Positions 4,435-63,544 of a stretch of 64,000 nucleotides of DNA are shown piece by piece. The stretch comes from Owenia fusiformis (Eukaryota; Annelida; Polychaeta; Sabellida; Oweniidae). How positions within the stretch are numbered: the first letter of the stretch is position 1; each line of letters starts with the position of its first letter. The notes under the pieces are model-generated. The model was given only the letters and a program-made list of their open reading frames with translations. It ran no database searches and was not told the origin of the DNA. Location: the NCBI GenBank assembly GCA_903813345.2, contig CAIIXF020000002.1, positions 33,062,109 through 33,126,108 of the forward strand. Direction: 5' to 3'. Both the position numbers and the translations under genes were made by a program.

Positions 4435-7400
4435 TTATCCAAATAGTTTCTTCTTAATTTTGCCTAAAAAGCCAAGATTTTCCTCACTGTCTGTGTGAGC
4501 TGTTGCATTGAGAGGCGTTTCTTCATTACTTGTCTGTGTATTTGTCTTTGCTTCCCCACCTGGAAGGAAGGAAGGACAAATACGTCACAAAATGTAATCG
4601 AGCTCATGATTTAATCTGCAAAATTCTATGGAACAAAAAAATTTCAGGCAAATAGTTCCATTTTTAAAATATTGTCTGTATCTACAGGGCGTTTCATAAT
4701 GACCATCCCATCAACCACCAATCCTAAATAGCATACCACCATATTTTGTATATCATATGAAAGCTTTTTAAATTCTGGACTTATCAAAGCAGTCTTGACA
4801 ACTTGCTACAAAGTACATACCTCTACAAAAGGTACCCATTTTACCTTAAGCATAGAATCTGAAAGCTACATTTTTTCCAAAATATACCATGTGCCCGGCA
4901 AACAGCTATGATAACCATGCCTCAATACACTACTATCTGTAGTAATGTACAACTGATAACATTAGATGGATGCTGAGAGTATATCCCAATGATATTTGAA
5001 AGACAAAAGTATTACATATTTCAAAGAAATACCAGAGAGCTCAATGTGATTCAATGGATTATATAGCATTATGCTCCTCTTTTTAAATCCATGGGGGGGA
5101 GCTTTTTCACAATTTTGGCTAAAAATCATGTGAAAAATTCTCAGAATGGTGAAAAACTGCATGATTTTGAAAGAATTTCTGGCCAGGGAGGGAGGGAAGC
5201 TTCCGCTCCCCCAGCTCCTCCTCTGGCTACGGGCCTGTATAATGACTATCAAACATAATTTTACAAATCATGTTCCAATTGACCAATCATGCTTAAATTT
5301 GGCACATAAGTCCAGAATTGAATAACCTTTATAATGGTATATAGATTATGGGGCCATGTGATCTAGGATCGGTTGTGCATGGGAGAACGGAACATGAAAC
5401 ACCCTGTACATTAATTTCTTTTATTTTCATGACTTTGAGGTTTACCTCACCCTTTGTCCTTTGCATGAAACTTCCATTCAACATATTGATGTTTTAAAAT
5501 ACAATGTCAAGATCAAGATGAACACATCGTAAGTGATTCATATTCTCTCAATGCAACTTGCTCAAACATGAAAATTACTCTATCCTATTACATATACAGT
5601 ACTTTACGTACCATCTTTTGTTTGTGCTATTCCATTCACTGTTCCCTCAACTCCTTTCTCAATTTCAGCATAGGCCAACAACAAGGCCTTCTGCTTGTCC
5701 GAAAGTTTTCTGAAAACAGATTTGATTAGAAAATAACTCCCTGTTAAGCCAATACTATATTTAAGTTGTTTTTTTATCTGGTATTTAGCTAATTTAAGAG
5801 GAATGCCCAGAAGCATTGCACTTATCCTTTGAATTTGATCCAAAATAGCTGATAATAATGATGTATTTACACTGGTACATTTATTTTAATAAGTACAAAA
5901 TGATGTACTTACACTGGTACATTTATTTTAATATGTACATAATGATGTACTTACAATGGTACATTTATTTTAATGAATGGATGTACTTACACTGGTACAT
6001 TTATTCTAACATGTACATAATGATGTACTTACACTGGTACATTTATCTTAATATGTACGTAATGATGTACTTACACTGGTACATTTATTCTAACATGTAC
6101 ATAATGATCTCCATAACCATAGCTATTCACTCGACTTATTCCCTTTCCTTTCAACTGTAGCCGAGTATGGGAATCTGTTCCTGCTGGTATCTAAAAGTAA
6201 AAATATATATTGATGAATTAATGACATATTCAACTATACATACAAGAAAGGGTAATCTCTACAGTAAGTTTTCACTACAGAGGGGCATTCACTACGGATA
6301 GGGATATTCACTAAACATGGGTCTTCAATACCAAGAATCTTTCACTTCAGAGGGGTGATCAGTGTTCACTTAAGTGGGTGTTCCACTTAAGTGGGTGTTC
6401 CACTTAAGTGGGTGTTCCCTACAGAGAGCTATTCAACACAAAAAATCATTAGCGGGATTTGTGACAGATGCTCACATTAGAAAAATGTACAAATGTACTC
6501 ACATTTAGCAGGATATCTCCATATATACCAGGTATTCTTGTAGTACCCCCCAATACTGCCTGTGTCAGGGATATTACGGCATCAGAATGTACATCAGCGC
6601 CATCCCTTCTAAATGTCCTGCTTCTTGCCACCTAGCAAATAACACATTTCTCATCATTTCTTCAATAAATAAAAAAAATAAACTTTAAGAGGCACTGGTG
6701 GAAGAGAATGTATTATAGGTTTTACTATAATATGTCATTATCTTACGAATAAAATCATTCCAGTCTGAGACTGAAATAAACTTCTCTGTTAATAGTGAAT
6801 TTGGGATTTTGGGCACCAATTTCAGATATATTTTGCCAGGTCGTGAGCATATTGCAAAATAAAACTCTGATTTTTACACAAATATGAAAAAATGCCTAAC
6901 AACTAATGATTTGTACTTTATGTAACAACAACAACACTTTTTTGTACTTCATGTGCTTCCTGTTGATAGATGTTATGGACAATTTTGATATCATAACAAT
7001 ATAAAACCAGAACAACGGCAACGCCAAAGCGTAGCGAATCCCATCGAACAGAAATGGCTGGCATTTTTACAAACGAATAGCAAATATCATAAAACAACAC
7101 ACCAGAAAGGCCACCATTTTCAAAATGGTTGCTCACTAGCCAAGTTGTCATCAGAAGAAATAATATGCTTTTAAGTAGCCACCTCTAAAATTTTTGAAAA
7201 ATCATACATGTACTTGTAAAATAACACACATAAAAATGGTGGCCATTTTTCGAAATGGCCGACTACTCCCCAAAGTTTTATTAGACAATGTGCCATGCTT
7301 AAAGCATTCACATATCAAATATGAACAAAATCGCTCCACTACTTTTCGAGTTATAGTAAAATACGTTAAAATGGCGGCCACTTTTCAAAATGGCCACCTT

Positions 7401-10400
7401 CTACCAAAAGTGTCATTAGAAATAGACAGTGTGCCATGCTTATAGTATTCACATACCAAATATAAACAAAATCGCTCTACTACTTTTCGAGTTATAGTAA
7501 AAAAAGTTAGAATGGCGGCCATTTTTCCAAATTTTTTTCAAAATGGCCACCTTCTACCAAAAGTGTCATAGGACAGTGTGCCATGCTTATAGTATTCACA
7601 TACCAAATATGAACAAAATCGCTCCACTACTTTTCTAGTTATAGTAAAATATGTTAAAATGGCGGCCATTTTTCAATTTTTTTTTCAAAATGGCCACCTT
7701 CTACCCAAAGTGTCATAGGACAGTGTGTCATGCTTCTAGTATTCACATACCAAATATGAACAAAATCGCTCCACTACTTTTCGAGTAATAGCAAAATACG
7801 TTAAAATGGCGGCCATTTTTCAAAATGTTTTTCAAAATGGCCGCCTTCTACCAAAAGTGTCATAGGACAATGTGCCATGCTTATAGTATTCACATACCAA
7901 ATATGAACAAAATCGCTCCACTACTTTTCGAGTTATAGTAAAATACGTTAAAATGGCGGCCATTTTTCAATTTTTCTTCAAAATGGCCGCCTTTTACCAA
8001 AAGTGTCTTTAGACAGTGTGCAATGCTTATAATATTCACATACCAAATATGAACAAAATCGCTCCACTATTTTTTGAGTTACAGCAAAAATCGTAAAATG
8101 ACAAGTAAAGGCCGCCATTTTTCAAGATGGCTGCCATGTGCTTCTTTAATATCTACATTTGTAGCATTATTAATGTCCTTTATAATTTTTCTACATTTAA
8201 AACATATTGCTATTACAGTTTTACATATTGCACCTAAATTACTGTAAAATCGGCACTAAAATGGCCGCCATTTTGAAATGAGCGGCCATTTTGAAAATCG
8301 GCTTTCGAGCAGAACTTCTACCCCCATAGGGTATATGTATACAAAATATGAACAAAATCGGGCCAACGGTATTTGAGTTATTGCCCGGACGGACGGACAG
8401 ACGGACGGACGGACGGACGTACGTACGGACGGACGGAGGCGTTCCCTATATCCCTCCGAACTTCGTTCGATGGGATAATAAAATTAAAATTTACTTAACA
8501 CTTTACAGTGTTGCCCCTTCATTGAATACACACAAAAAAATATTTGTTCATATCTGGCTAATTCACAAGACTGTAAACAATAAAATCGCATAACTACTTT
8601 TTTTCTTCTTTTCACAACCTTTATTTTACTAAACAGGACGTTTCGGATCCTGTCTGGATCCTTTTTCAACTGTATATAAACTGAACTGAAGCGCTACAAT
8701 GAATACAATACTGTTAAACATTGATGTACATTTAATCAATCCATAATCACACATCTTTTTGCGTGGTAAAAATTGTTGAGATCTCGTTTACTAAGATCTG
8801 ATCAGTTATTTTTTTCCATTACAAATATTTACTGAAAATATAGATATTCACTCCTTCAATGATTGTATTAGGCTCTTTGCATTCTACATTTTTATGATCA
8901 ATTTCTCATTGGTTCACTGGTATTTTAAACATAACTTAAATACTTATATTTGTATCCAGAATAAAATCAAGATAATCAAGTGAAAATTTCACTAGAAAAA
9001 TATAAGTATGGAGAAAACTACTCCACTGTTCACAGGGTTCATAATAGACCACAGAGGAAGACGATGAACAAAACTAAATGCTTGTTTTGCTATTGGATGG
9101 TAACATGTTAATTATGTCACAGGTTAATATAGAATCAACATGTAGATGATTTATGTAGTTTAGATTATTTGTTTGTTAATTTTTTTTTTTTGTTAAGTTG
9201 CCGATGGAGCAATATGTGACTGATGTCATAGTTGATGTGAATGTCATATCTTCGAATTAATAGTACAAAGAAGTCCGCCCATTTCGAGGAGGGCCTTTAT
9301 AAAAAATAATACAAGTAAGCTAATGTGTAGGTGTCAGGTGGTTATGAAATTCTCCAACTTCCTCACTTTATCATAAATATTTTTTTCATGAAATTTGATT
9401 ACCATCTTCCCACTTACCCCACAAATGTGAGCCTGATTTGCGTTTTTTCTTATTTTTGACATTTTCTAAGCAAATCCAATATTTTGAAAATAAATTCAAA
9501 AATAATCAACAAAATAAGACAAAATATCCTCACATTTATATGGGGAATTTCTCCAACATACAGCAGAATAAGATGTTCTCAAAATGCATTTCATGATATG
9601 AAGGTAATGAATTGGTAATTACATGTAATTGCTCACTACTTGTCTACGAGGGTTGTCCTAAAAGTCTTGAAATTTCGCTCTCATTTCATCAATTCTTCGT
9701 ATATAATTGACTTGAAACAGATGAGATGGGTTGTTGATCATGAGGAACTTTTTTAGAGAGGTTAGTTATCTTTATATGACTCCTTCTAATTTGATGTAAC
9801 CTATACCCAAGAATGTTGTAAATCTGCTTATGTATAGTCAACATTCATTCAATCTTTTCGCATTCCACAAAAGGATATGAAATCTATATTTACGAATAAT
9901 TGAATAATTGTAACAAATTTGTATTGCATATAAGTGTATGGTATATTTACTTCGAAGTTCAACACAAATGTTAAATTGATTAACCTTGTTGAATTTTCAT
10001 TGTATGAAATTAAATGTTATAATATATGAACTTGAAATAAAAATGATTACTAAAAAAAAATATTTGTAATTGGTCAAATGGGTAGCTTGACAAGCTGATG
10101 GGAAGCCACTGTACTCACCTTAAATGTGATGAAAATTTCTCCACTGCCGACGTTCATGCGTACAGTTTGTCCATCTTCGACACCAGATGGCACTGGGACA
10201 GTAACTGTTTTGCGCAATATAAGCTTTCCTTTGCCACCACACTCAGTACAAGGGTGCTTGATCAATACTCTTGTGCCGTGACAGTGTCGACATGTTGATC
10301 TCATAACAAATGGTCCATTACTGATGGTTTCCTGAATCAGAGAAAGACAAAATCATTTTCTCTTTAGCACTGTTGTATGAGGTAAGATAAGAATGCTTTG

Positions 10401-13400: not shown

Positions 13401-14831
13401 CCATATAGTCCCTTTTGGTCCACTGAATCATGATCTCATTATTAAAAAGATATTTTGTTATTTGTCTTACACAACATTCTTGCGGTTGCTATGGTGTTGT
13501 GATAACCAAAAAACCAATAAACTAGAACTAATATTATGTATGATGTTACTGATCACGTTGGGGCCAATCTAACTGATATGTTAATTTTATAATGGCTTTC
13601 ACAAGAAGTCTATTTTAGGCTTAAAATGCAGAAAAACAAATTTCTAGCCTACAAGTTGAGAAAACCAATTTTATCTGTCCTTTAGAAGAATCTAATGTAG
13701 ACAATGCTTATCCTTAAGTTTTAAAAAGAGTTCAAAATTATCGAGAATATTTTTGATTTTTAACCATTTAACGTGCTAGCCACTCTCCCAAATAGACAAT
13801 AGTATCAAAAATTAGGGTTTCTCAAACTGACTTACTGTATAATATGCTTTCTTTATCTCTTTATCACTTGCACTTCGTGATACCCCTAGAACTTCATAGA
13901 AATCTCTTTTCTTTTGACAAGCTGTTGATGACACATGGAAATGTCTCTGTGGGATAACTAGATTTGGTAGCGATAAATATGAAGCTGAAATAATGCAGAA
14001 ATTTAAATTCATTCAATGCAATGAGAAATATCTAGAAACAGATTGAGGTTTATGATAATGTCAATCAATATTTTAGCATTCTTTTCGTGTAGTTAGATCC
14101 ACAATTGTCTGGGTTTATCGGCAGAACGAAGAAATTTTCGTTTTTGATCGCAATATTTGCGTGTAATATTTAACTTATTTCAACCGTCAAAATCATCCAT
14201 TAATTGGTACTTCTGGGCCGGTCAAACGGGGAATCCCATTTTAATCCAACGGCCATCTCGAAAAGTGATGGAATCTCTCTCGATGAAAATGAAAAATGTT
14301 CCCATTCTGCCGATATACCCAGAAAATTGTGGATTCAACAACACGAAAAGAATGCTAAAATACCCAGGAATCTACTGAAGTAGGTATCTAAGTGTAAGAG
14401 GCGTAGAAAATTCTCCCATGTTGTAATTGTACAGGCAAAAGATTGAGACGTTCTCAGGACTATAGTAGATCTACTGGCATGGGATAACCTATGACTTGAT
14501 AAAGGATCACTCATCTTTGATGAGCTTAGACTTGTATCTGGATATACGTAGAATTCGAATGTCTATTGAAAAGTGGACACGAAGAAACTATAGAAAGGCT
14601 TTTAAACAGTGAAATGAATGAATGACGAAAGTGACGAATCGAAAAATATTTTTTTTAATTTTACTTACGATTTTTGAGGTCAGGTCGAGATTTACTGCAT
14701 ATACTGTTATTTCCCGGTAGGCCCTGGTGTAAGAGGTATGATAACCTTACATAAGAATATTGTCTGTCGACATTTAAAGGGAGCTTTTGTGATTTTTGTC
14801 GACAGAAAAGTCGAGAAGTTCGCATTGCCAT
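4435..14831 (-). CDS. DNAJA3: DnaJ homolog subfamily A member 3, mitochondrial (Tid1), 11 coding exons, 495 aa
   Basis: Mitochondrial Hsp40 co-chaperone that stimulates the matrix Hsp70 ATPase and binds unfolded clients. Coding exons (minus): 14831-14669, 13984-13836, 13202-13122, 12173-12053, 11409-11270, 10859-10707, 10331-10119, 6631-6503, 6190-6075, 5709-5612, 4559-4435. All introns are GT-AG and every phase matches; the sum is 1488 nt. Residues 1-30 are Arg-rich and lack acidic residues until Asp22, a plausible import presequence ([12 protein letters not shown]...). The J-domain starts near RDFYEVLGV (about 81) and has HPD at 110-112. A Gly/Phe-rich region follows (about 145-215). The zinc finger has four Cys motifs between 244 and 304: [24 protein letters not shown] and CTECGGKG. 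The first lacks its usual final Gly. The C-terminal domain has [11 protein letters not shown] and [10 protein letters not shown], and the protein ends [12 protein letters not shown]. Human DNAJA3 is about 480 aa. The exon-8 donor lies in a tandem array (5858-6108). I chose the ATG at 14831 because its exon phase fits and it supplies the presequence. Confidence 0.95.
4683..5409. mobile_element. Fold-back element with ACAGGGTGT-type ends in DNAJA3 intron 10
   Basis: The left end reads TACAGGGCGTTTCAT and the right end ATGAAACACCCTGTA, an almost perfect inverted pair. Similarity between the arms continues inward for about 130 bp, sharing a 'TTCTGGACTTAT' block. The middle (about 5090-5235) looks like a separate insertion with G-rich and 'GGCTACGGGCCTG' sequence. 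Similar ACAGGGTGT ends occur at 26010-26056 and 47744-48174. It lies between the last two coding exons of DNAJA3. No coding capacity is seen. Confidence 0.6.
5858..6108 (-). repeat. 42-bp tandem array made of DNAJA3 exon-8 end plus its 5' splice site, six units
   Basis: Units start at plus positions 5861, 5903, 5945, 5981, 6023 and 6065, spaced 42, 42, 36, 42 and 42 bp. On the minus strand each unit reads roughly ATGTACATGTTAGAATAAAT, then GTACCAGTGTAAGTACATC. That is the last codons of exon 8 followed by its GTAAGT donor. The unit nearest the exon body (6065-6108) overlaps real coding sequence; the others lie in the intron. Five units keep GTAAGT and the most distal has GTAAAT. Every spacing is a multiple of three, but reading past the first donor meets an in-frame TAA at once. 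Confidence 0.9.
6230..6420. repeat. 17-bp tandem repeat and related short repeats in DNAJA3 intron 8
   Basis: Three head-to-tail copies of ACTTAAGTGGGTGTTCC start at 6368, 6385 and 6402. Each contains the palindrome CTTAAG. Upstream (6260-6365) are looser repeats of 'TTCACTACAGAGGGG' type. The array is about 80 bp beyond the exon-7 donor on the minus strand. No function is evident. Confidence 0.65.
7013..8480 (+). mobile_element. Non-autonomous inverted-repeat element with internal repeats, copy 2, in DNAJA3 intron 7
   Basis: The same ends as copy 1 are present: AAACCAGAACAACGG then ATCCCATCGAAC on the left, and GTTCGATGGGATAA on the right. The interior has about six units of 146-150 bp with AAAATGGCGGCCATTTTT cores, then an ACGG array (about 8389-8440). 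The orientation matches copy 1. The open frames across it (for example Arg-Thr-Asp-Gly repeats) only translate the ACGG array and are not genes. Confidence 0.8.
8600..8690 (-). mobile_element. Possible decayed retroelement tail with a GGATCC hairpin and GAAACGTCC motif
   Basis: On the minus strand the sequence reads GAAAAAGGATCC, AGACA, GGATCC, GAAACGTCC, then an AT-rich stretch with AATAAAGG. A short hairpin followed by GAAACGTC resembles the ends of some invertebrate retroelements such as Penelope-like elements. This is recalled similarity only; no reverse-transcriptase frame is nearby. Confidence 0.3.
8700..10118. other. DNAJA3 intron 7, remainder, including a possible mariner-type end at 9645
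   Basis: Mostly unstructured AT-rich intron. At 9645-9670 the sequence TACGAGGGTTGTCCTAAAAG resembles a mariner/Tc1 terminal repeat, beginning with the TA expected at such insertions. No partner end or transposase frame was found, so it would be a relic. Confidence 0.35.
12347..12519. mobile_element. Short dispersed MITE-like repeat, copy 1 (DNAJA3 intron 3)
   Basis: It begins CAGGGGTTTCATTAGCAGCA and ends in TAGTGATATCCCTG, which are imperfect inverted ends. A second copy in opposite orientation lies at 27298-27472 and shares internal blocks such as 'AACATGGAAAA' and 'GGGACTTTTCAA' on matching strands. Length is about 170 bp with no coding capacity. Confidence 0.6.
12883..13034. mobile_element. 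Short MITE-like element with AGTGATCT ends, copy 1 (DNAJA3 intron 3)
   Basis: Ends are AGTGATCTTCCCAGG and GGGGAGATCACT, an inverted pair. The interior has two 'AAGTGGGTGC' blocks and 'TTTGGTCAAAATATGGC'. A diverged inverted copy lies at 31870-32005 in the first GLIS2 intron. About 150 bp, non-coding. Confidence 0.55.
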
Positions 14832-21392: not shown

Positions 21393-32159
<10,767 letters not shown>

Positions 32160-46200: not shown

Positions 46201-49200
46201 TGTTAACTTTTATTTTATTACTGGATAGAATTCAGAGTACTATCTTGTTTTATGATGGGTTTTAAAAAATATGAAAAAAGATATCTTGTAATTGTTTTGA
46301 GTCAGTTTTGTAAAATGGAGGAGTTCCATTTACACAAATTTTTGCATTTTGGCTTTGAAATGGATGATGTTGTGACATTTGGTTAACCCTACAGAGCCTT
46401 CAATGCCCTTCTTTTAAAGTACAGTGAAACCTGTATATACAAACACCTCTCTATTCTAAGCACCTTACTTATCCAAACACCTGTCAATTTGAATAACTTT
46501 TCTCAGTTCTAAATTGTTATTTATCATAAATAACATTTTTTACCTACTAATCTGATCAATTTTACCTGCTCCCAAAGGTGTTCAGATGAGACAGGTTTTA
46601 TATTGCATGATGTTCGTCATTAGTGAAGATGGACCTAGATTTATTGTGAGTTGAATAAATCAGGCAAAAGTATTTTTGCATGATAAAAAAAGTCTTTTAA
46701 ACACATTTTGTATTTTTATCATTATTTTACAATTATTTATGGAATTAATACACATAGTATGAACCAACTCTTTGTACCATATTATAAATATTGTACTTGG
46801 CACAAACTCTATCTTAAGCTACGTAGATAAATATGATATTATAACACCCTTTTTTTTGAAATGAGAATTGATCAAATAATGAGAATATATAGTTCCACTA
46901 TTTTATGAATTTGATTTGACCAAAATTTATGCCCGGCATAAAATTTGTTCCAAAATTTATGCCGGGCATAAAATTTGTTCCAAAATTTATGCCGGGCATA
47001 AAATTTGTTCCAAAATTTATGCCGGGCATAAAATTTGCTCCAAAATTTATGCCGGGCATAAAATTTGTTCCAAAATTTATGCCGGGCATAAAATTTGTTC
47101 CAAAATTTATGCCGGGCATAAAATTTGTTCCAAAATTAATGCCCAGCATAAAAATTGTTACAAAGTTCATGCTAGGCATAAAAATTGTTACAGAATTTAT
47201 ACCCAGTTTAAATTTTGTTACAAATATCATGCCATGCATAAAATATTGCTTTTGAGATGGAATTTTTTTCAAATACTAGAATCATTATGCCAGCAGGAAA
47301 AAAACTTTGGGGAAAATTAATACTTTCACCAACATCAATTTTTAGTCTTTTTCGGCCATTATTTCAATGCTCTAATAAACTTTTAGTTTTCTGCAAACAA
47401 GCATTTTACCACTCATTTCAGCAGTTAATAACAAAGAATCATTTACTTGTATTGTATTTATTTTTAACAGTTAACTCTTTATTTTCCATGCATATAGGCT
47501 ACAACATATTTATTCTAAGGCTATTGCATTAAAGTATACTCCATAAATATTGTGTATATATTTTTGTCAAGTATTTTAAGTTGATTTTAACTTAATTTGC
47601 AGTCAGTCGTATTATTTAGAGCTTCAAATGTCATTTCAATCCAATGTTGACTTGAAGTATCCACAGATTTGCAGAACTTTTAACTACAACAGGTTACTCA
47701 GTTGTAATCCAAATGTAACCATATCATGAGGTGACCATCCATCATATACAGGATGTCAAATAAGTCTCATCCTACTGCTACAGCTAAAACCTTAAAAGAT
47801 GGTACCGAGTATGATATACCATTTGAAAGGTCACCTAAAGTATCTCAAGTAATTAAGATGAAATTTACCTATATTTTCATGATGAGAATTCCAGAAATCA
47901 GTTAAATTCACTGCGATATGCATCTTGAGCTCACTTGACTTTCTGATACATGATTTTTAGAATCCTGGTAAATACATCAAATTGCCATGTTTCTAGGTCT
48001 ATGGTCACCTTAATTGATATCAATTTTGTGACAATGATTGACAGGTACCAGATATAACACATATTAAAGTAACTTTGGATGATCTTTCCAATGATGCATT
48101 AATTTGGTACCATACATCTTGGTTTGGGCTTTAGAGGGGGTGGAACTCACAACACCCTGTATATGAGGAATTTTAGGGTTTGTCTTATTCATGTAAAATC
48201 CCTAACCTTGTAATTTTCACTATCACTAATTGATTGGATAAGACGCCTGGGAAGGTCAGCGAGCTATATCTACCGCTATTGCCTGATGAATTACCCCGAT
48301 ATAGCCCCCTTACCTCATTTTGATATTAGATTCTTTAATGACCATGAAAATATCATAATGTCATGCGTTTCATTTCAATCAAATTCTACTCGCACACACA
48401 TGTGTGATGTCATTGATACAACATAGCCATGAAAATAAAGGTATGTAATACACCAGCTATGTCACTATGACGTGAAATATGCCTTCGTGTGATTAAGATG
48501 TTATAGTTGTGTTATCATTCATAGTCAACTGTTTTCAGTTCTCTGCTTCGTCTGCTGTTAGTGCTTCCTTGCACAGGGCACAGTCGTTTCTTCATATCAG
48601 CACTGGTTTAATAAAAAGGCTCTGATTCCATTATTGCACGGTCATTTTGTCTCAGGTAGTTTGATAATCATTTCACTGTGAGCAGTCTGGACAGTGTGAG
48701 ATGTGAAGTCTAGACACTTCTCACTTCTAGATGCATTTTCGTGTCTTGGCCTGGTCTTCTAATCCTCACATGTATTTTTATCAGGAACTGAGTTTTGCAG
48801 GGGCAAGTCAATGTAGCCAAGCTGAATAACTCAAGATGGTCAGTGTTTGGTGTTCTAGAGCCACAGTCACAATAGGCCTAGCTGATGGTGAAGTTACAAT
48901 ATGTCATTTTGTTGATTGTTTCTTTTGACAATTTTTTGATTTGTATGTAGGTTTTGGATTCTAAATAGATCGGGAGTATCAGTATCAATCAGCGACCTTG
49001 GAAATCAGTCGATTCTAACACCAATGACAGGGAACATCTTCTGCAAACACTGAAAAATGAGAAAATTCATTATTGACATTATCAGTCAAAATCTAATACT
49101 GTAGATTGGGTTAATTTGGTGCCCTCTTTAATTTGGCAATTTAGCGAAATAAAAAAAATGTCCAATTCACATCTTTGCCAAATTTAGAAAGGATCTGCGG

Positions 49201-52200
49201 GAAAGGACGATTCTCGGTTTGGAGAACGAAGTTCATCAATCTAAATGAGCATTATCCCTGCTTCGGACAAATTTCATTTTTTTACATAATATATATTTGA
49301 ATGTCTTCATTTGAATAGTCATAATTTAATTTAGGTAATATTTCTAGATTTTTTGCAAAAAATATTAGCGCAGTACACTGATGAACTTTTTTCCCCAAAT
49401 CGTGACTTGTATTTTATTGATACGGTCTAATTGAGCATTATCCCTGCTTCAGACCAATTTGTTATTTTTACATCTTGTAGATTTAAATGTCATCTTTTGA
49501 ATATTCATAGTTTAATTTGGGTAATATTTCTATATTTTTCATAAAAAAATTATTAGCCCAGGAGACTGTTCTCCAAACCGAGAATCGTCCTTTCCAGGGA
49601 ATTTTGTATGGTGTATTTAAATCCCTTACGTTTTAGTTTTTACAAAATCTGAAAAGAGTAAGCTTAACAAATATCAATATGATTGAGCATTACCACGCGG
49701 AAGCCAAATTTTTAAATAATAAATTACTAGCTAGATAAAGTAGTTGAATTGAAGGAATTGATGTAGCAATTTGTATTTTATTTGAGTATGTCATCTATGT
49801 ATCTATGGAAGTTGTGGCATCATAGCAATGTCCAAGCCCCAGTGTCCGCCAAATCAAATGGCTGCCATAGCCTGCCAATATACAAATAAAAAAAGTACCA
49901 TGGGTACTGGGCTCACATGGTCACTGGTGTTGCTCAAAAGTGAATGAATGATGGCTAAAATGGCAGAAAACTAAGAAACCGGTATAATTTTTTTTCTGAT
50001 TTTTTGCAACATAATTATTTCATATAACTACTCTTTACAGTGACATGGCTTTTTACAATGCAGGACACCTGGAATTATTTGTAAAGCTAGAAAATGGGCA
50101 AAAAGTGAATTTTGCAAGACAAAATGGCGACCATTTTAAAAATAAGCAAGCTTTTGAACCAGTAGTCATAGAGGGGAGTTTTATGTATTGATGTTGAACA
50201 AAGATAAGTTAAAGTGGGGATCCTATTGACATGGTTTTAAGGCAAATAGTCCAAAAGTGGATTTCGCGAGAGAGATGGAGAAATCAAAGATAACTAAAAT
50301 GGCTGAAAATAAAAAATGGATAAAATGTTTTGCCGATTTTTTTGTAACAAAATTATTTCATAAAACTACTCTTTACAGTGAGATGGCTTTTTACAATGCA
50401 AGAAACCTGAAATTATTTGTGAAGCTAGGAAATGGGTCAAAAAAGAATTTCGTGAAACAAAAATGGCGACCAAATTGAAAATAGGCAAGCTTTTGAACCA
50501 GGGCTCAAAGGGGAGTTTTCTGTATTGATGTTGAACAAAAATAACTTAAAACTGGAATCCTATCGACAGAGGTTTTAAGTCAAATGGTCCAAAAGTGGAT
50601 TTCGCGAGACAGATGGACAAATAAATGTTACTAAAATGGCTGAAAATAAAAAAATCATTTTATACAACTACTCTTTACAGTGATATGGCTTTTTACAATG
50701 CAGGACACCTGAAATTATTTGTAAAGCTAGGAAATGGGCCAAAAGTGAATTTCGCAAGACAAAAATGCAGACCATTTTGAAATAGGCGAGCTTTTGAACC
50801 AGGAGTCATAGTGAAGTTTTCTGTTTTGAAATCGAACAAAAATAAGTTAAAATGGGAATCTTATCGACGCAGGTTTTAAAGCAAATGGTCCAGAATTGCG
50901 AGGCCAAAATTGCGGCCATTTTGAAAATAGGGGAGCTTTTGAACCAGGAGTCGGAGGTTTTTTTCTATATTGATGTTGAACAAAAATAACTTAAAACGGG
51001 AATCCTATTGACAGAGGTTTTAAAACAGGCCAATATATTGTTGACAGCCGGACAGACAGACGGACAAGTGAGTAATTGCAATACCTCACCATGTGAGCTA
51101 AAATTGGCAAAATCGCCAAATTAAGTAGCGCCAAATTGATCCAATCTACAGTAGATTTAAAATATTAATACTATTGAGTTGAGTGTAAATGTATCCAAAC
51201 TCAATGCTGAATGTAGTGATTAAATTGCCTGCATTGCACATTGTCAATAAAATTCAATGGTTTTCTCATATTTCATGTTGAGTTATCCTAAAGGCCTAAT
51301 GCAAAATATGAAAAGTTTAATCACTAGTTTAAATCATTTAAATTATTACTTTTCATGACTTTAACAACTGTATTCAAGACATTTTTGAAAATGTGACTTT
51401 TGAAAAACATATAGAATCTATTAAAAGAGTCACCAAGTCAATGTTTTCGCTATAAATCAAGCAACAATGCTCTACACAACTGGTAATAATATAATAGGTC
51501 TTATACGTGATGTTATTATAACAAAACCAATGTCATTGCTGGTTTTTTAAAATAAATTCCAAATCTTAGATAGAATTAATCGAGAATCATTATAATTGAA
51601 CGGAGGGGGAGTGAACGGAGGGGGGGGAGTAATATGTTTTGTAGGTGGAAGAATTTTCCGCGATTTTGTGTATTTGAAAACTGAAGTAAGTAACAACTCG
51701 ATGTTACAACTCTTTACAACTCTTTAAGAGTGAAAAATAGGGACATTTGGATTTATTGGAAATAAAGTCAAGTTACATCTCTTATCATATGTCTTATAGA
51801 CATTACTCCCCCTTCTGTTCACTCCAGCTCCATTCAATTTAATTATCCCACCGAACGAAGTTCGAGGGGGATATAGAAAAGCCGTCCGTCCGTTCGTCCG
51901 TCCGTTCGTCCGTCCGTTCATCCGTCCGTTCGTCCATTCGTCCATCCGTCCGTTCGTGTGTCCGGGCAATAACTCAAATACCGGTTGACGGATTTCATTC
52001 AAATTTTATAGGCTTATGCCTTATGGGTGTAGGACCTCTTCAATATGGCCGCTTAATTCAAAATGGCGGCCATTTTCGGAAAAAATATAATCTTTAATAA
52101 CTCAAATACTAGTGGATGGATTTGGTTGAAATTTTATATGCTGTTGCCTTGGTACAAAGGAGCCTTGCTCAAGAAGACATTTTCAAGATGGCCACCAAAT

Positions 52201-55200
52201 TTCAAAATGGCGGCCATTTTTTGTAAAAAAACGTTATCTTTGATAACTCAAAGACCATTGAATGGATTTGGTTCAAATTTTAGATGCTGATGCCTAGGGA
52301 CATAGGAGCTCTGCTCAAGAAGGGATTTTCAAGGTGGTAGCTAAATTTCAAAATGGCCGCCATTTTTCATAAAAGAACGTAACCTTTGATAACTCAAATA
52401 CCAGTTGACGGATTTGGTTCAAATTCTATATGCTGATGCCTAGAGACAAAGAAGTTCTGCTCAAAAATAAATTTTCAAGATGGCCACTGAATTTCAAAAT
52501 GGCCACCATTTTCGTAAAAAAACGTAATTAATGATAACTCAAATACTAGTGGATGGATTTGGTTCCAATTTTATATGCCGATGTTTAGGGAAAAAGGAGA
52601 TCTGCTTCAGAAGAAATTTCAAAGGCGATAGCTGAATTTCAAAATGGCTGCCATTTTTCATTAAAAAAGTAATCTTTGATAACCCAGATACCATTGGATG
52701 GACATTCTCTGCTAAAGAAGAAATCTAAAGATGACAGCTGAATTTCAAAATGGCAACCATGTTTCATAAAGACATAATCTGTGATAATTCAAATACCAGT
52801 GGATGAATTTGGCTCAATTTTTTTTATCAAAACATGTTTTGTTCGGTGGGATTTGCTACTCCGTGGAGTTGCTGTTTTTCTAGTTACTTTCGATTATTTT
52901 TTATATAACGTATCGTAACAAATTTCACAAAACCAGCAAATGACAAATTGTTTTGTTATAAAATAATAACATTACGTACAAATATTCATAACAGATCCTG
53001 TAGATGACATTTACACGTTTAATAAATGTTTCAAATGTTAACATTCTTAAAAAATAAATCTTCCAGATTTGTTGAATTCTCTCGCGAAAATCAGCTACCC
53101 CCCTCTGCTTGTTTCTTCTAATCACTGTGCGTGATCATTATAGAAACAAACATTTAGAATTTGAGATCATTAAATAAATCTCTTAATGCCCCCATATAAA
53201 CTTTAAACCGTTGTGGCTTACTCACAGTACTCTAATACTTGACACTATTATATTTTGGGATATTTAAACTTTGCGGCTATTATATTTTGCTAATTTCAGT
53301 TTCAATTTCACCATTTCCTGGATTAGAACTATTGGAATTTTGCAGCTATTATACTTCGCAAAAGGAGGAGGGAAAGTATCGCAACAGATTTTGGACTGTC
53401 ATATGTTGGATTTTGGCTATTTTCTGAGGATTTAAACAGGTGCATATGTTAGATAAATGCATTACCTCCAGGAAAAGCACTCATAGAGATGATAAAATAA
53501 TTTCGACTTTGAGATTGGGAAGATGCAAAGAGCCCATCCACATGAAATGTTGTTCTGATTTTCAATGTCAATGATTTTCTACTTCGATTTTAACAAATCT
53601 TTTTTTGCACAGTTTCGTTGAGTTCTTACATGACCTTAGGCTTGAGATTTGACCTTTTGGTGACCTTCAACTTTTTAAAAATGCCTAGATTGCTTGGTTA
53701 AACCTCTAGTTTTTTTTATTAAAAACAATTTCCATTAAATTGAATACCATTTTATTTTGGTTAATTTTCTTTTAAGTCATCAAGGAAATGGTAGAATAAA
53801 TAGGTACTAAGTACAGAGCCCTGCATTACTCCATTTGTTTCCGAAGTTTACATGACAGAAATTCCAAAATGGCCATCCTAACATTTACCCATAAATGTCC
53901 CAAAACAAATCAGATCCACTAGTCATCAAAGATTATATTTTTTCCAAAAAATGGCCACCATTTTGAATTAAGCAGCCATATATATTGAAAATTCTTTTTC
54001 GAGCAGAGGTCCTACACCCATAAAGCATAAGCCTATAAAATTTGAATGAAATCCGTCAACCGGTATTTGAGTTATTGCCAGGTCACACAAACATACAGAC
54101 GGAAAAACAGACGGCTTTTCTATATCCCCTCGAACTTTGTTCATTTTGCTTCGATTGACCAATTAGTTTTTCAAAATCATCTACAAGTTCTCAGAAGTTC
54201 AAATCTGCCTTTGGATTTGTGATTCCACCTCCAATGACATTCTCAGGGTCAAAAAAGGTCTTTTTACATCTTGCTTCAAATTGACCAATTCATATTTTCA
54301 AAGTCATTACTACAAGTTCTAAGAAATTCAAATCTGACTAAGATTGAACTCATAATATATGTCATATTATGAGCAACAAGGTGGTGACATTTTGTCATGT
54401 TAATGCCTTGTTATTAAAAAAAATTACTTTTCTCACAAAAAATACAAGCCATTTTGAATTCTAGTGGCCATCTTTGAAGTTTTTAGATAAATCTTATCAT
54501 CGCGATTCCAGAAACACTTGATGGCTTAACTTCAAATTTCCACACATGTTACATGGTAAGAGGTTCTAGAGCTGATTATCTTGCATTCTGGTAGCAATCT
54601 TGGAAGTTTTCAGATACTGTATTCCTGGTATATTTCCGCTTGCAATTTAGTTTCGCGCTTTTCGCTATTGAGGTAAAATCGCAAGGATTTGTCAAAGGAG
54701 CACGTAAGTTATTGCAAACAATTTCAGAAGGTTATATCTTGAATTACGACTATTTTCTGACAGTGAAGACAGGTTTATCTTTTAGATCAGTTAGTTATCT
54801 CAAAGAAGATCAAATACTGTACTCCGGGTAATGTTCACGTGCGATTTAATTTCGCTTTGTTCGCGAATGTAGTAAAATCGCGAACATTTATCGTCGCGAA
54901 ATTTGTCTTAAATCCCCGGTGTTGTTGGGCGAAGGCCTAAAAACATTTTGAATTGGCTTATTAGACCAACAAAGGCAAGAACTGTTGACGACAATGATAT
55001 CCTACAAATTGAAGTTGAAAAAGCCATTCAAGAATATTCAAATAAATGCCCTAAACGTGGGAAATTGATTCATGGTAATCGGAAAAAAATTCAACTTGTG
55101 CAATCTGCGAAATGTCATCAACTCACACTTTTTCAAAGACGGTGACCCCATTTTCACCAAAAATGCAATCATTTTTACAATGTTTAATGCAATACTATTC

Positions 55201-61200: not shown

Positions 61201-63544
61201 CTGGATCGGTATTGATGTTTGCATGCTGAGGACCTTGATATAACAATACAACCATATGTTTCCTTGTGACATTCATCAAAGGAAACTTTTGCCGTACTCT
61301 ACATATGTACATGTGTCTATAGGAACTATGTGTCATATACATTGATTACGTCTACCAGTTGATATTCTGACACAAGCGTCTCATCCAATCAATCAATTTG
61401 TCATTGTGAAAATCACTTGATGAGGAATTTTACACAAACAACCAAAACCCTCAAATTCCTCATGGGAGCCTAGGATAGCTACTACTACATGTCATAGTTA
61501 CATCTGGATTACAACATGTACAATGGCTGAATGGAGTACCCTGTTGTAGTTAAGAGCTCGGGAAATCTGTGGATACTTCAATTGACTTCATAGAAGCTCC
61601 AAATAATAACACTACTGCACTAGGCCACTGGGTGACAATAAATTCAAGTCAAAACCAAATTAAAATACTTGACAACAAAATACAATCACCATGTTTATAC
61701 AGTATACTTATTAAATTAATAGTAATAATATATTAATAATAAAAATAGTGCATATATTAAATAAAAAGTGGAATTATTAAAAATAAATACAAACTATAGA
61801 TAGTAGAAAGTAAACATTTGTTTATTCATTGCTGTACTGACTCTTGTAATATTTGTTCAGTTGGTAGAAAATTAAAACTTTTTTCTTCAAAATCCACAGA
61901 GCATTTTAATAATGAGCCAATAGACTAAAATGATGCTGGAATAAAATTAACATGAATTTTTTTGGACTTTATTTTTCCCCTGTTTTTATGTCAACACCAG
62001 AGATGTTGACATATTATTCTTCCTGGCAGTGGAATAATGATATTTGTAACAAATTCCATGCCCAGTTCAATATTTATACGTGACATGACCTTTGTAACAA
62101 GTTCTATGTAGTGCATAAATTCTGTACCAAATTTTAAGCCCGGCATAAATTTTGGAACAAATTTTATGCCCGGCATAAATTTTGGAGCAAATTTTATGCC
62201 CGGCATAAATTTTGGAACAAATTTTATGCCCGGCATAAATTTTGGAACAAATTTTATGCCCGGCATAAATTTTGGAACAAATTTTATGCCCGGCATAAAT
62301 TTTGGAACAAATTTTATGCCCGGCATAAATTTTGGTCAAATCAAATTCATAAAATAGTGGAACTATATATTCTCATTATTTGATCAATTCTCATTTTAAA
62401 AAAAAGGGTGTTTTATACTGTTTTATGAATTTGGTTTTATTTGTTAGGATGGAAAAGAAATCTGACTAGTGATTACAGAACAGCAATACATCAACTTACT
62501 TTTCATGTTAGATAATATTAAATTGAATTAATACCGGAAAGCCAAAAATAAAAATATGAGACAAAGAAGCTTGTTAAGTGCATCTGTGGGGTAAAGCCAA
62601 TAGTCATGGTGACATACGCAATCAACTCAGGCTGGGGATAAGAGTCACAGAGAGGTTACACTATTATAAGAATAAGATGCTGTCAATCGGTTACCATGAC
62701 AACAATCCTAATTGATTATTCAAGATGCTACCCTATTGTGTTGACACGCCTTAAAACAAGGGATCTGATACTTGAATTACGTTCCATATGGGTTTTATTG
62801 CAAGTAGATCTATTCAGAGTTGGTTAACAAGAAAGAGATAATTAAGATGATTATGATTGACATGCTGAACCTTGATTGACTCTTGATTAACTGCCACAAT
62901 GCCCTGTTTTCTACAGATGCGTAAAATTACTCTTGTACTTTAATAGCATACTTCATAGGTATAAAACAATCCCTATATTCTCTTGTGAGTTGTATGAAGA
63001 AAAGAAGATCATGTTGAACTCAGAAAATACAGTTTGTGTGGATTCTTGCTCCAGGGTGCTCAACAGTAATAAATTTGCTAATTGAATTAATTTGGAATTA
63101 TTGGCAATGTTTTTGATCAAAGATTTTGCGCAGATGATACGACTGGTCAGTTTAAGCTATTGATTGGTTTTCAAGTGTCTGTCTTGTTTTCTGGGAATAT
63201 GGCGATTTGGCACACTGCCAAGCTGACTACCAGCTGATGATGGGCTTGTCTTTGTAAATGTAATGTCTAGTGACGGATCACTGAAATAGTGAAATATACT
63301 CCTTTATGAGAATGGTATTTTGTGTTAAAGTTACTCAAATGAAAAATTTGTTTATATCATGTATTACAGGCTGCTATTCTACAACAGACCTCAGAATTTA
63401 TCCAAACTTTGGTGCGTGAAAAGGAACGTTTGATTTCCCAGAATGCATCACTGAAACAGATGCTGACTGATTTGTCTGTGCGGCATGGCGATCTGGATAG
63501 CCATCCGGGGTCACCACCTGCGAAACGGAAAAAAAGAGATACTG
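40231..63544 (+). CDS. TFAP4: Transcription factor AP-4 (TFAP4), bHLH-leucine zipper, first three coding exons; gene continues off the right edge
   Basis: Nuclear bHLH-zip factor that binds symmetrical CAGCTG E-boxes as a homodimer. Exons: 40231-40325, 41948-42122, 63370-63544, all GT-AG, with phases 2, 0 and 1. They give 148 codons plus one base; the rest is outside the window. Residues 51-65 are the basic region (KRLRREIANSNERRR), including the Glu-Arg pair that reads the E-box. Helix 1 and loop follow (MQSINSGFQTLKGVIPHQDG, EKLSK). After the 21,247-bp intron 2 come helix 2 and the first zipper (AAILQQTSEFIQTLVREKER, LISQNASLKQML). A likely nuclear localisation signal is PPAKRKKRD. The bHLH is close to human AP-4; the N-terminal 50 residues are not. 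The start is ATG at 40231 or the one two codons on, which has the better context (AAGATGG). Confidence 0.93.
40326..41947 (+). other. TFAP4 intron 1, no feature recognised
   Basis: 1.6-kb intron with GTGCGT donor and TTCAG acceptor. I saw no clear repeat element or hidden exon. Confidence 0.5.
42123..45690 (+). other. TFAP4 intron 2, left part, largely featureless
   Basis: AT-rich intron. AGGTCAAAGTTCA (about 42769) is a direct-repeat-1 nuclear-receptor-type word. No conserved exon or strong inverted repeat was recognised. Confidence 0.4.
45703..45948 (-). CDS. Coiled-coil-like open frame of unknown origin in TFAP4 intron 2
   Basis: An 81-codon frame has a charged, helical-looking centre, REKRREIRVREQRIELEEN, and ends at a stop at 45703. 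Such Arg/Glu stretches occur in the Myb/SANT-like accessory proteins of some DNA transposons, but I cannot assign a family. No splice structure or flanking inverted repeats were identified. It could be a transposon relic or a chance frame. Confidence 0.25.
   Translation of the reverse strand: MKIECKRMGPARNKINSHVVNTLNCIEMLKNATIQSNFREKRREIRVREQRIELEENDLIQGHPHVNNIGIKPNNTQFNDL
46421..46605. mobile_element. Pogo-like MITE relic
   Basis: It begins TACAGTGAAACCTGTATATA, then CAAACACCT. The other end has AGGTGTTCAGATGAGACAGG then TTT, an imperfect inverted match. TACAGTGAAACC is typical of pogo/Tigger-type termini. About 180 bp, non-coding. Confidence 0.45.
46841..47245 (+). repeat. 30-bp palindromic satellite array A with conserved flank
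   Basis: Units start every 30 bp from 46921. Seven are near-identical (CAAAATTTATGCCGGGCATA, then AAATTTGTTC), followed by four decaying units to about 47245. The core TTTATGCCGGGCATAAA is a perfect 17-nt palindrome. A flank of about 75 bp before the array is shared, inverted, with the array at 62050-62413. The array is open in several frames on both strands, giving MPGIKFVPKF-type peptides that are not genes. Confidence 0.9.
47744..48174. mobile_element. 431-bp element with ATATACAGG/CCTGTATAT ends
   Basis: The left end ATATACAGGATGTCAAATAA and right end ACTCACAACACCCTGTATAT form an imperfect inverted pair flanked by AT-rich sequence. The ends belong to the ACAGGGTGT group also seen at 4683-5409. 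No coding frame. Confidence 0.55.
48175..49097 (+). other. TFAP4 intron 2 stretch with no recognised feature
   Basis: No repeat element or exon is recognised apart from scattered short palindromes. Confidence 0.4.
49098..51152. mobile_element. 2.06-kb inverted-repeat element with internal tandem repeats
   Basis: Left end ACTGTAGATTGGGTTAATTT continues GGTGCC, CTTTAATTTGGCAATTT. The right end is AAATTGATCCAATCTACAGT preceded by GCCAAATTAAGTAGCGCC, giving about 50 bp of imperfect inverted repeat. The interior from 49980 has at least three units of about 300-336 bp with CTACTCTTTACAGTGA, ATGGCGACCATTTT and TGAACAAAAATAA blocks. A CGGACAGACAGACGGAC tract lies near the right end. A second element is nested at 49200-49595. 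The layout (inverted ends, ATGGC/GCCAT repeats, GAC-rich tract) parallels the 1036-2222 family. Confidence 0.75.
49200..49595. mobile_element. Nested 396-bp element with 27-bp inverted ends
   Basis: Left GGAAAGGACGATTCTCGGTT then TGGAGAAC; right GTTCTCCAAACCGAGAATCG then TCCTTTCC, an exact inverted pair. Inside are two tandem copies of about 190 bp starting GAGCATTATCCCTGCTTC (49248 and 49433). It sits inside the larger 49098-51152 element. Confidence 0.75.
51843..52886 (-). mobile_element. Inverted-repeat element with internal repeats, copy 3 (inverted)
   Basis: Starts TTATCCCACCGAACGAAGTT and ends GTTCGGTGGGATTTGCTACT then CCGTGGAGTTGCTGTT. These are diverged reverse complements of the ends of copies 1 and 2. 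A GTCC-type array (51888-51965) is the complement of their ACGG arrays. The interior has six to seven units of about 130 bp with AAAATGGCGGCCATTTT and GATAACTCAAATACCAGT blocks. Confidence 0.75.
52887..53860 (+). other. TFAP4 intron 2 stretch with no recognised feature
   Basis: AT-rich sequence without a clear repeat element or exon. Confidence 0.4.
53860..54615 (+). mobile_element. Truncated copy 4 of the ACGG-array family plus diverged repeats
   Basis: 53940-54150 matches the inverse of the copy 3 start: AAAATGGCCACCATTTTGAA, TCCTACACCCATAA, GGTATTTGAGTTATTGCC, a degenerate CAGACGG tract and ATATCCCCTCGAACTTTGTT. The terminal GTTCGATGGGAT is lost. Two similar blocks near 54155 and 54285 (GATTGACCAATT... 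and ...TTCTCAGAAGTTCAAATCTG) form a tandem pair. A 54533-54610 block recurs at 57403-57500. Confidence 0.55.
54600..54915 (+). repeat. Paired TACTGTAYTCC...TTTCGC repeats around a protein-like fragment
   Basis: Two related blocks at 54617 and 54818 read TACTGTAYTCCNGGTA, then a TGCRATTTARTTTCGC segment and GTAAAATCGC. Between them an open frame encodes KGARKLLQTISEGYILNYDY, FLTVKTGLSFRSVSYL. The blocks look like MITE ends. The protein fragment has a relative on the other strand at 55640-55515. Confidence 0.4.
54948..55145 (+). pseudogene. Protein-like fragment, unknown family
   Basis: The frame reads NWLIRPTKARTVDDNDILQI, EVEKAIQEYSN and so on to a stop at 55145. A weaker relative follows at about 55695-55790 (LFDQIKQKNYDLIEVEVLRA). 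Together with the KGARK/KGARR pair, this suggests two diverged copies of one coding segment, now broken and partly inverted. I cannot name the family. Confidence 0.3.
55515..55640 (-). pseudogene. Protein-like fragment related to 54690-54815
   Basis: On the minus strand the frame reads NKGARRLSQTMSNDSNLNYE, YFLIMNMGVSFRSIHDL. It aligns without gaps to KGARKLLQTISEGYILNYDY... on the plus strand at 54690-54815. It is likely a transposon or retrogene remnant in inverted orientation. Confidence 0.35.
55972..57403. mobile_element. 1.4-kb inverted-repeat element, copy 2 of the CAAAGGA-TGGTATCGATATGG family
   Basis: Left end CAAAGGAGTGGTATCGATAT then GGAGAACT; right end AGTTCTCCATATCGAATCCA then CTCCTTTG. 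Interior blocks at 56100-56600 match the 15411-16069 copy (GGTTCGGAAAGATGTTTCAT, TTTCCTTTGTA). About 56690-57340 has no counterpart in the short copy and is probably an insertion or extra internal sequence. Confidence 0.65.
57530..58295. repeat. About 740-bp imperfect palindrome in TFAP4 intron 2
   Basis: The arms 57540-57905 and 57945-58295 are reverse complements with mismatches. Matched pairs include ATAAAAAATAATGTTTAA with TTAAACATTATTTTTTAT, TCAGCATAACTCTGAA with TTCAGAGTTATGCTGA, and TTCACTTCTGTTTGAAGTTC with GAACTTCAAATAGAAGTGAA. The central loop is near 57905-57945 and carries TGTCCACTGTGAGGGAGC and GTCACATAGCGGACA. It could fold into a long intronic double-stranded RNA. Confidence 0.75.
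58296..58902 (+). other. TFAP4 intron 2 stretch with no recognised feature
   Basis: No repeat or exon recognised. Confidence 0.35.
58903..59910 (+). mobile_element. 1.0-kb element with 26-bp inverted ends and short open frames
   Basis: Left CACAGTGTTATAGCATGACG then GTTACG; right CGTAACCGTCATGCTATAAC then ACCGTG, one mismatch in 26. Inside are short frames at 58939-59127 (plus; FAVTITKNGGWERQHILFLA and onward), 59278-59487 (plus) and 59339-59076 (minus). None is recognisable as a transposase. It could be a deleted DNA transposon. Confidence 0.7.
60415..60640 (+). repeat. Diverged tandem duplication with AP-1 and DR1-type words
   Basis: Two related blocks of about 110-120 bp share GTCATCAAACAAAC, CAACAAA/TAAACAAA, TCATNGCAACCAAG and AGCAGAAAGCAGG/AGCAGACAGCAGG. 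The first contains TGACTCA (60437-60443) and GGGTCAAAGGTCA (60455-60467), the AP-1 and DR1 nuclear-receptor consensus words. Function is not shown. Confidence 0.45.
60641..62040 (+). other. TFAP4 intron 2 stretch with no recognised feature
   Basis: AT-rich intron. The short open frames lack recognisable content. Confidence 0.35.
62050..62413 (-). repeat. 30-bp palindromic satellite array B, inverted relative to array A
   Basis: Same 30-bp unit as 46841-47245, in the opposite direction: about seven near-identical units (ATTTTATGCCCGGCATAAAT core) from 62140 to 62335 and decaying units toward 62050. The far flank (62336-62413) is the reverse complement of the flank before array A, including 'GGAACTATATATTCTCATTA'. 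The pair is separated by about 15 kb within one intron. Confidence 0.9.
62414..63369 (+). other. End of TFAP4 intron 2, no feature recognised
   Basis: Ordinary AT-rich intron leading to the acceptor TGTATTACAG before exon 3. Confidence 0.45.

Follow-up and report, generated by a model that had tools for sequence, protein, structure and literature searches.

A tandem array of six copies, each carrying the end of an exon together with a 5′ splice site, lies across an exon-intron boundary of a DNAJA3-like gene in a 64,000-nucleotide stretch of Owenia fusiformis DNA (the window). Such donor arrays recur in conserved genes of the O. fusiformis genome, which is the new observation made here. The DNAJA3-like array itself belongs to the mirage-type minisatellites, an already described kind. 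As judged from the sequence, the donor nearest to the exon body (donor 1) is likely to be the one used, and the other five would be tolerated passengers removed together with the intron.

Gene and array

A single open frame of 440 residues, ending at the stop codon, was obtained by joining ten minus-strand exons that had been picked by eye. The encoded protein contains a J domain, a zinc-finger domain and, at residues 163-366, a DnaJ_C domain. Its zinc finger (2.2e-29) and J domain (7.8e-25) matched the corresponding solved DNAJA3 domains, which fits the name DNAJA3 given to the gene in the preliminary description; we refer to it as DNAJA3-like. Over the full length, the best match was a bacterial-type DnaJ (4.5e-67), because the full DNAJA3 chain was absent from the match list.

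The array-bearing exon (6075-6190; all exons and array features are on the minus strand) measures 116 nt with donor 1, codes for 39 residues plus two bases of the following codon and holds the end of DnaJ_C, as confirmed by Pfam on the exon peptide alone (E 4.3e-8). It is preceded by an exon at 6503-6631 and followed by one at 5612-5709, the acceptor of which reads ...ttttcag and which joins donor 1 in frame. The stop codon lies in the last exon (4435-4559), whose junction is situated behind the stop that use of a later donor would introduce. The array exon had been described as exon 8, which is right when numbering starts with the exon at 13836-13984; since an acceptor stands before the latter, there is probably another exon ahead of it, and 9 may then be the correct number of the array exon. 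Using the boundary-proximal donor, the host gene is intact, with its 440-residue frame and its J, zinc-finger and C-terminal domains. A genome search found no second copy of the gene and no retrocopy recording past donor use; the four matches obtained all belonged to this locus.

Analysis of the array (5855-6108) with TRF yielded a period of 42, 6.2 copies and a score of 389, compared to a best score of 64 (period of at least 10) in 200 first-order shuffles of 5601-6300. Read on the minus strand, the units measure 42, 42, 42, 36, 42 and 42 bp, followed by 8 bp of a seventh. A full unit consists of 34 exonic bases and GTAAGTAC, which are 8 intronic bases; the array thereby spans the exon-intron boundary, and its units carry splice signals. 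GTAAGT is present in donor 1 (6069-6074), donor 2 (6027-6032), donor 3 (5985-5990), whose unit is identical to copy 1 over all 42 bp, donor 4 (5949-5954), where it follows ATT inside the 36-bp unit, and donor 5 (5907-5912), while donor 6 (5865-5870) is weakened to GTAAAT. On the minus strand, these donors start at 6074, 6032, 5990, 5954, 5912 and 5870, respectively. The earlier account of six copies, one of them 36 bp, with five GTAAGT and a final GTAAAT was thus confirmed by TRF and by the unit read-out.

Duplex energies with U1 were calculated using the sequence that we take to be its 5′ end and amounted to -6.8 kcal/mol for copy 4, -2.6 kcal/mol for copy 6 and -7.8 kcal/mol for each of the other four. 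As a correction to the earlier account, the six sites are not equal, given the ATT before GTAAGT in copy 4 and the GTAAAT of copy 6. RNA structure was considered as a donor selector and rejected, the array folding no better than shuffled sequences (z -1.33; 26 of 200 shuffles equally good). The array locus gave a single match in the genome assembly; neither a second haplotype nor further array copies were found in this search, in which simple repeats, common words and stretches outside the searched sequence can be missed.

Predicted products of the six donors

Joining of donor 1 to the next exon as GT/A keeps the residues V-P-V-K-L. Each of the later donors would extend the exon by a multiple of three nucleotides (42, 84, 120, 162 or 204 nt), as had been claimed for the donor spacings. 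For all five, the extension brings in the same in-frame TAA, which sits within donor 1 itself; because this donor reads GTG TAA GT, the stop is immediate whichever later donor is used. The resulting product would end at residue 367 of 440, just past DnaJ_C, and lack the last 73 residues. The last exon junction would be located 136-298 nt downstream of this stop. A stop well upstream of the last junction usually leads to decay, so NMD would be expected. Both the need for the exon-proximal donor to obtain full-length protein and the truncated or NMD-targeted message expected from later donors, as put forward in the preliminary description, consequently agree with the frame read-out and with the usual rule. 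That the frame is full-length with donor 1 only, the sole one of the six to keep it, supports the use of this donor.

Origin of the array

The array is flanked by an 8-bp direct repeat, ATCATTAT, with an exon-side copy at the start of copy 1 (6101-6108) and an intron-side copy after copy 6 (5855-5862). From base composition, the chance of an 8-base identity at one fixed place is about 3e-5. The presence of ATCATTAT at both array ends suggests slippage or unequal exchange, for which two 8-bp direct repeats lying 42 bp apart, presumably ancestral, would be the simplest seed; the same picture would result if the duplication had left a partial copy behind. Copies 1 and 3 being identical, homogenisation or recent duplication seems to involve the coding exon end. 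Copy 6 differs from each of copies 1-3 at 5 sites and is the most diverged among the five full-length copies compared (all but copy 4).

According to the route that we propose, the last 34 exon bases and the first 8 intron bases would have been duplicated in tandem, probably between two ATCATTAT repeats, after which the array would have grown into the intron through slippage or unequal exchange; some homogenisation, which may have included the coding copy, would have accompanied this growth. The spliceosome would pick the exon-proximal donor, and the five others would be removed with the intron and be neutral; leakage into a single truncated message prone to NMD would be minor at most.

Intron creation by internal duplication, reportedly described by Rogers (cited in PMC3087553) and by Gao and Lynch (cited in PMC3488318), likewise involves a tandem duplication that carries splice signals. 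Unlike in that process, the DNAJA3-like array makes no intron. The acceptor required by the frame (5710-5711) and the existing intron lie outside the array, no new intron is present between copies, and by inspection the unit contains AG dinucleotides and no pyrimidine tract.

Donor arrays in other genes

The genome was searched for three-fold occurrences of AGGTAAGT with gaps of 20-50 bases (449 matches; at least 11 distinct loci among the matches listed) and of MAGGTAAGT with gaps of 33-49 bases (184 matches; at least 13 loci among the matches listed, 8 of them new). From both searches, 19 other donor-array loci were examined. In 11 of these, the exon entering the first donor gave a match to a known family with E no higher than 1e-5. 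Family matches were obtained for UGDH, ubiquitin hydrolase, immunoglobulin, Il2rg-like and CTDNEP1 exons, and for BLOC1S5/Muted and tetraspanin exons following joining of a second exon stretch by hand. NCS-1 was matched against solved structures and FANCI both by Pfam, below the curated cut-off, and by solved FANCI (1.2e-15), whereas the matches of the Cep192 domain and kringle exons remained below the curated cut-off of the family. TRF copy numbers among these 11 arrays ranged from 6.1 (CTDNEP1) to 68.8 (kringle). An ABCC5 exon with a 5.3-copy array (TRF) matched weakly (0.01 against solved structures; none with Pfam), and the remaining seven arrays (L005, L007, L008, L025, L026, L030 and L032) were without a recognised family match. 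The array at the kringle-like exon (L029, C6:25948801-25953400) has a 44-bp unit of exon end and donor in about 69 copies. At the tetraspanin-like gene (L003, around 950-1250), the acceptor side and the start of the array exon also occur twice, and both exon ends seem duplicated.

The BLOC1S5-like array has about 33 donors; when its first donor is connected to the following exon, the conserved protein is restored, with a Pfam Muted match of 2.6e-28 across the junction. Unit length was not a multiple of three in 9 of the 17 other donor arrays measured with TRF. When 13 arrays, including that of DNAJA3, were read through, 11 showed a stop within 23 codons past the first donor. Coding use of the arrays was accordingly discarded; among the 13, only tetraspanin is open throughout, FANCI being open for 139 codons and then showing stops. 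In ten arrays, 152 of the 177 donors of copies 2 onward are intact GTAAGT. Pooled over these ten, which had been picked by intact donors and are thus biased toward them, the later-copy donor hexamers diverged by 2.4%, against 4.0% elsewhere (Fisher p 0.016), and the comparison with windows of the same arrays gave p 0.093. Evidence for selection on the donors of later copies is weak.

Comparison with mirrored words

An excess of arrays at strong donors is suggested by word counts for which mirrored words served as the only controls. Triple MAGGTAAGT at 42-58 bp was matched 184 times, compared to 40 for the reversed word, although the single word occurs less often (11,150) than its reversal (16,270). 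Distinct loci with a true period of 42-58 bp numbered 12 for the donor word and 2 for the control (C1 to C8:16.84 Mb; binomial p 7e-4), the periods at control loci being judged by eye except at C2:24841991 (TRF 52). MAGGTGAGT arrays yielded 148 matches against 40 for the control word, but matches overlap and a single 29-bp array accounted for 34 of the 100 listed. At a spacing of 59-89 bp, 308 donor-word matches were obtained versus 107 for the control, a single locus again supplying 31 of the 100 listed. GTAAGT alone showed no excess over the mirrored word (7013 versus 7154), and AGGTAAGT little (449 versus 362).

The mirrored word identified control arrays at no fewer than 12 distinct loci among the matches listed, L017 being without a TRF array. 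A Pfam scan of peptides from ten of the control loci (L022 not among them) found two arrays adjoining a recognised exon (SLC6, 3.9e-18; serpin, 1.2e-12); these peptides were open frames over the array edges chosen by script, whereas those of donor arrays were taken upstream of the first donor by eye. At the SLC6-like exon (L021, 780-1200), a 52-bp array begins 25 bases behind the donor, which is excluded. Tandem repeats are abundant in the genome: in 84 kb from 12 random segments (contigs C1-C5), 11.9% lies in a TRF array of any kind, and 0.43% in two 40-60 bp arrays of three copies or more.

Discussion

In amphioxus, mirage minisatellites have been described in the Adh3 and globin (BflGb6 and BflGb9) genes, with units of 10-72 bp in Adh3 and 150-160 bp in the globins and with lengths that differ between two haplotypes (PMC3087553). 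A troponin C mirage and similar repeats in PGBD5 were reported later (PMC3902484). The results of both papers suggest regular splicing, which the repeats reportedly leave undisturbed (PMC3087553, PMC3902484). Like the amphioxus mirages as described there, the DNAJA3-like array is a repeat over an exon-intron boundary in which splice signals are copied and the gene is intact; homogenisation of copies, as in amphioxus, may also occur in it. It differs from the amphioxus mirages in its 42-bp unit at the 5′ splice site of a DNAJA3-like gene and in the recurrence now shown at other genes. Tandem repeats at exon-intron boundaries, with units of 30 bp on average and 4 copies, are also known from human segmental duplications, where they reportedly can create novel introns in recent paralogues and thereby alternative splicing (PMC2812944). 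Minisatellite expansion at exon-intron boundaries is common to both; unlike those human repeats, as far as described, the present array is situated in a conserved gene, no second copy of which was found, and at an existing intron. Among the titles listed by a literature search combining DNAJA3/Tid1 with repeat and splice terms, none concerned such a repeat in this gene, which, being based on titles only, is no proof of absence.

The conserved frames imply that, if the genes work, the exon-proximal donor must serve in most array genes, even next to dozens of near-equal copies. The simplest reading of the mostly intact later donors is that they are passengers removed with the intron. Against it, identical downstream donors should compete with donor 1, and in model transcripts the donor nearest to the acceptor is preferred. 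Nor is the excess of full-consensus donor arrays over the mirrored word predicted by purely random minisatellite growth. It is possible, though in our opinion rather doubtful, that full-consensus donors are duplicated in tandem more often, either through a mutational process linked to donors or because additional U1 sites are of benefit to splicing. The excess of triple MAGGTAAGT despite its rarer single word, the distribution over distinct loci, the MAGGTGAGT arrays and the 59-89 bp spacing all point in this direction, but GTAAGT alone and AGGTAAGT contribute no or little excess, overlapping matches are dominated by a few long arrays, mirrored words are the sole controls, one control array begins 25 bases past a donor that it does not include, and the DNAJA3-like donor itself is not of full consensus.

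Regulated unproductive splicing relies on NMD-coupled alternative 5′ splice sites, and the later DNAJA3-like donors, judging from the sequence alone, would similarly add a premature stop. Some transcripts would then use donors 2-6 and lead to NMD or to Tid1 minus its last 73 residues, the copy number setting the share. The stop common to all five later donors, the position of the last junction behind it, the equal calculated U1 pairing of four of the six donors and the slightly lower divergence of later-copy donor hexamers favour such a role. We nevertheless regard it as improbable: the architecture is shared by other genes, in which unit lengths often do not divide by three and copies can number about 69, which argues for a mutational class rather than a DNAJA3 device; the reduced divergence of donors does not stand out clearly from windows within these arrays; and the locus, as a single genome match, provides no length variants. 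The proposal that the array tunes the ratio of full-length to truncated Tid1 is consequently not supported, in view of the recurrence elsewhere, the unit lengths and the regular splicing reported in amphioxus (PMC3087553, PMC3902484). That the assembly collapsed or over-expanded a tandem repeat is very improbable; such arrays are difficult to assemble and the locus is present as a single copy, but most full-length units differ from each other (by up to 5 bases, copies 1 and 3 being identical), a 6-bp deletion distinguishes one unit, and the class recurs at other loci.

Put more broadly, and as an unlikely generalisation that we offer tentatively, 5′ splice sites of O. fusiformis may be recurrent foci of tandem amplification (about 5 to 69 near-identical copies of exon end and donor in conserved genes), of which only the first donor is read, with donor-linked mutation or a spare-U1 benefit continuing to make arrays. 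If so, a rule that the first donor wins would hold against dozens of equal competitors. Experiments on how one of several identical 5′ splice sites is chosen have mostly relied on a few engineered copies; the arrays in conserved genes, with about 5 to 69 copies, constitute a natural test of this choice. Routine RNA-seq of the species could tell if the exon-proximal donor is invariably preferred, and genome annotation could reveal if minisatellites arise at donors with particular frequency. The interest of the DNAJA3-like array thus resides in its recurrence and in this natural test.

Further repeats in the window

G+C content is 34% in the window and 33-37% in 11 of the 12 random segments, that of amphioxus being about 41%. 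Near the DNAJA3-like gene, a zinc-finger gene that is presumably GLIS-like (21393-22775, minus strand) contains tandem repeats within its open frame at 21867-22019 and 22188-22342. At 1471-1844, 7246-8100 and 52039-52702, the window holds tandem repeats of about 146-157 bp whose units abound in AAAATGGC-like words. Two nearby blocks, at 29158-29577 and 30093-30430, consist of arrays of a 14-bp CATGATAACATGTC-type unit. Finally, the repeats at 46920-47244 and 62113-62335 have a common 30-bp consensus unit in opposite orientation.
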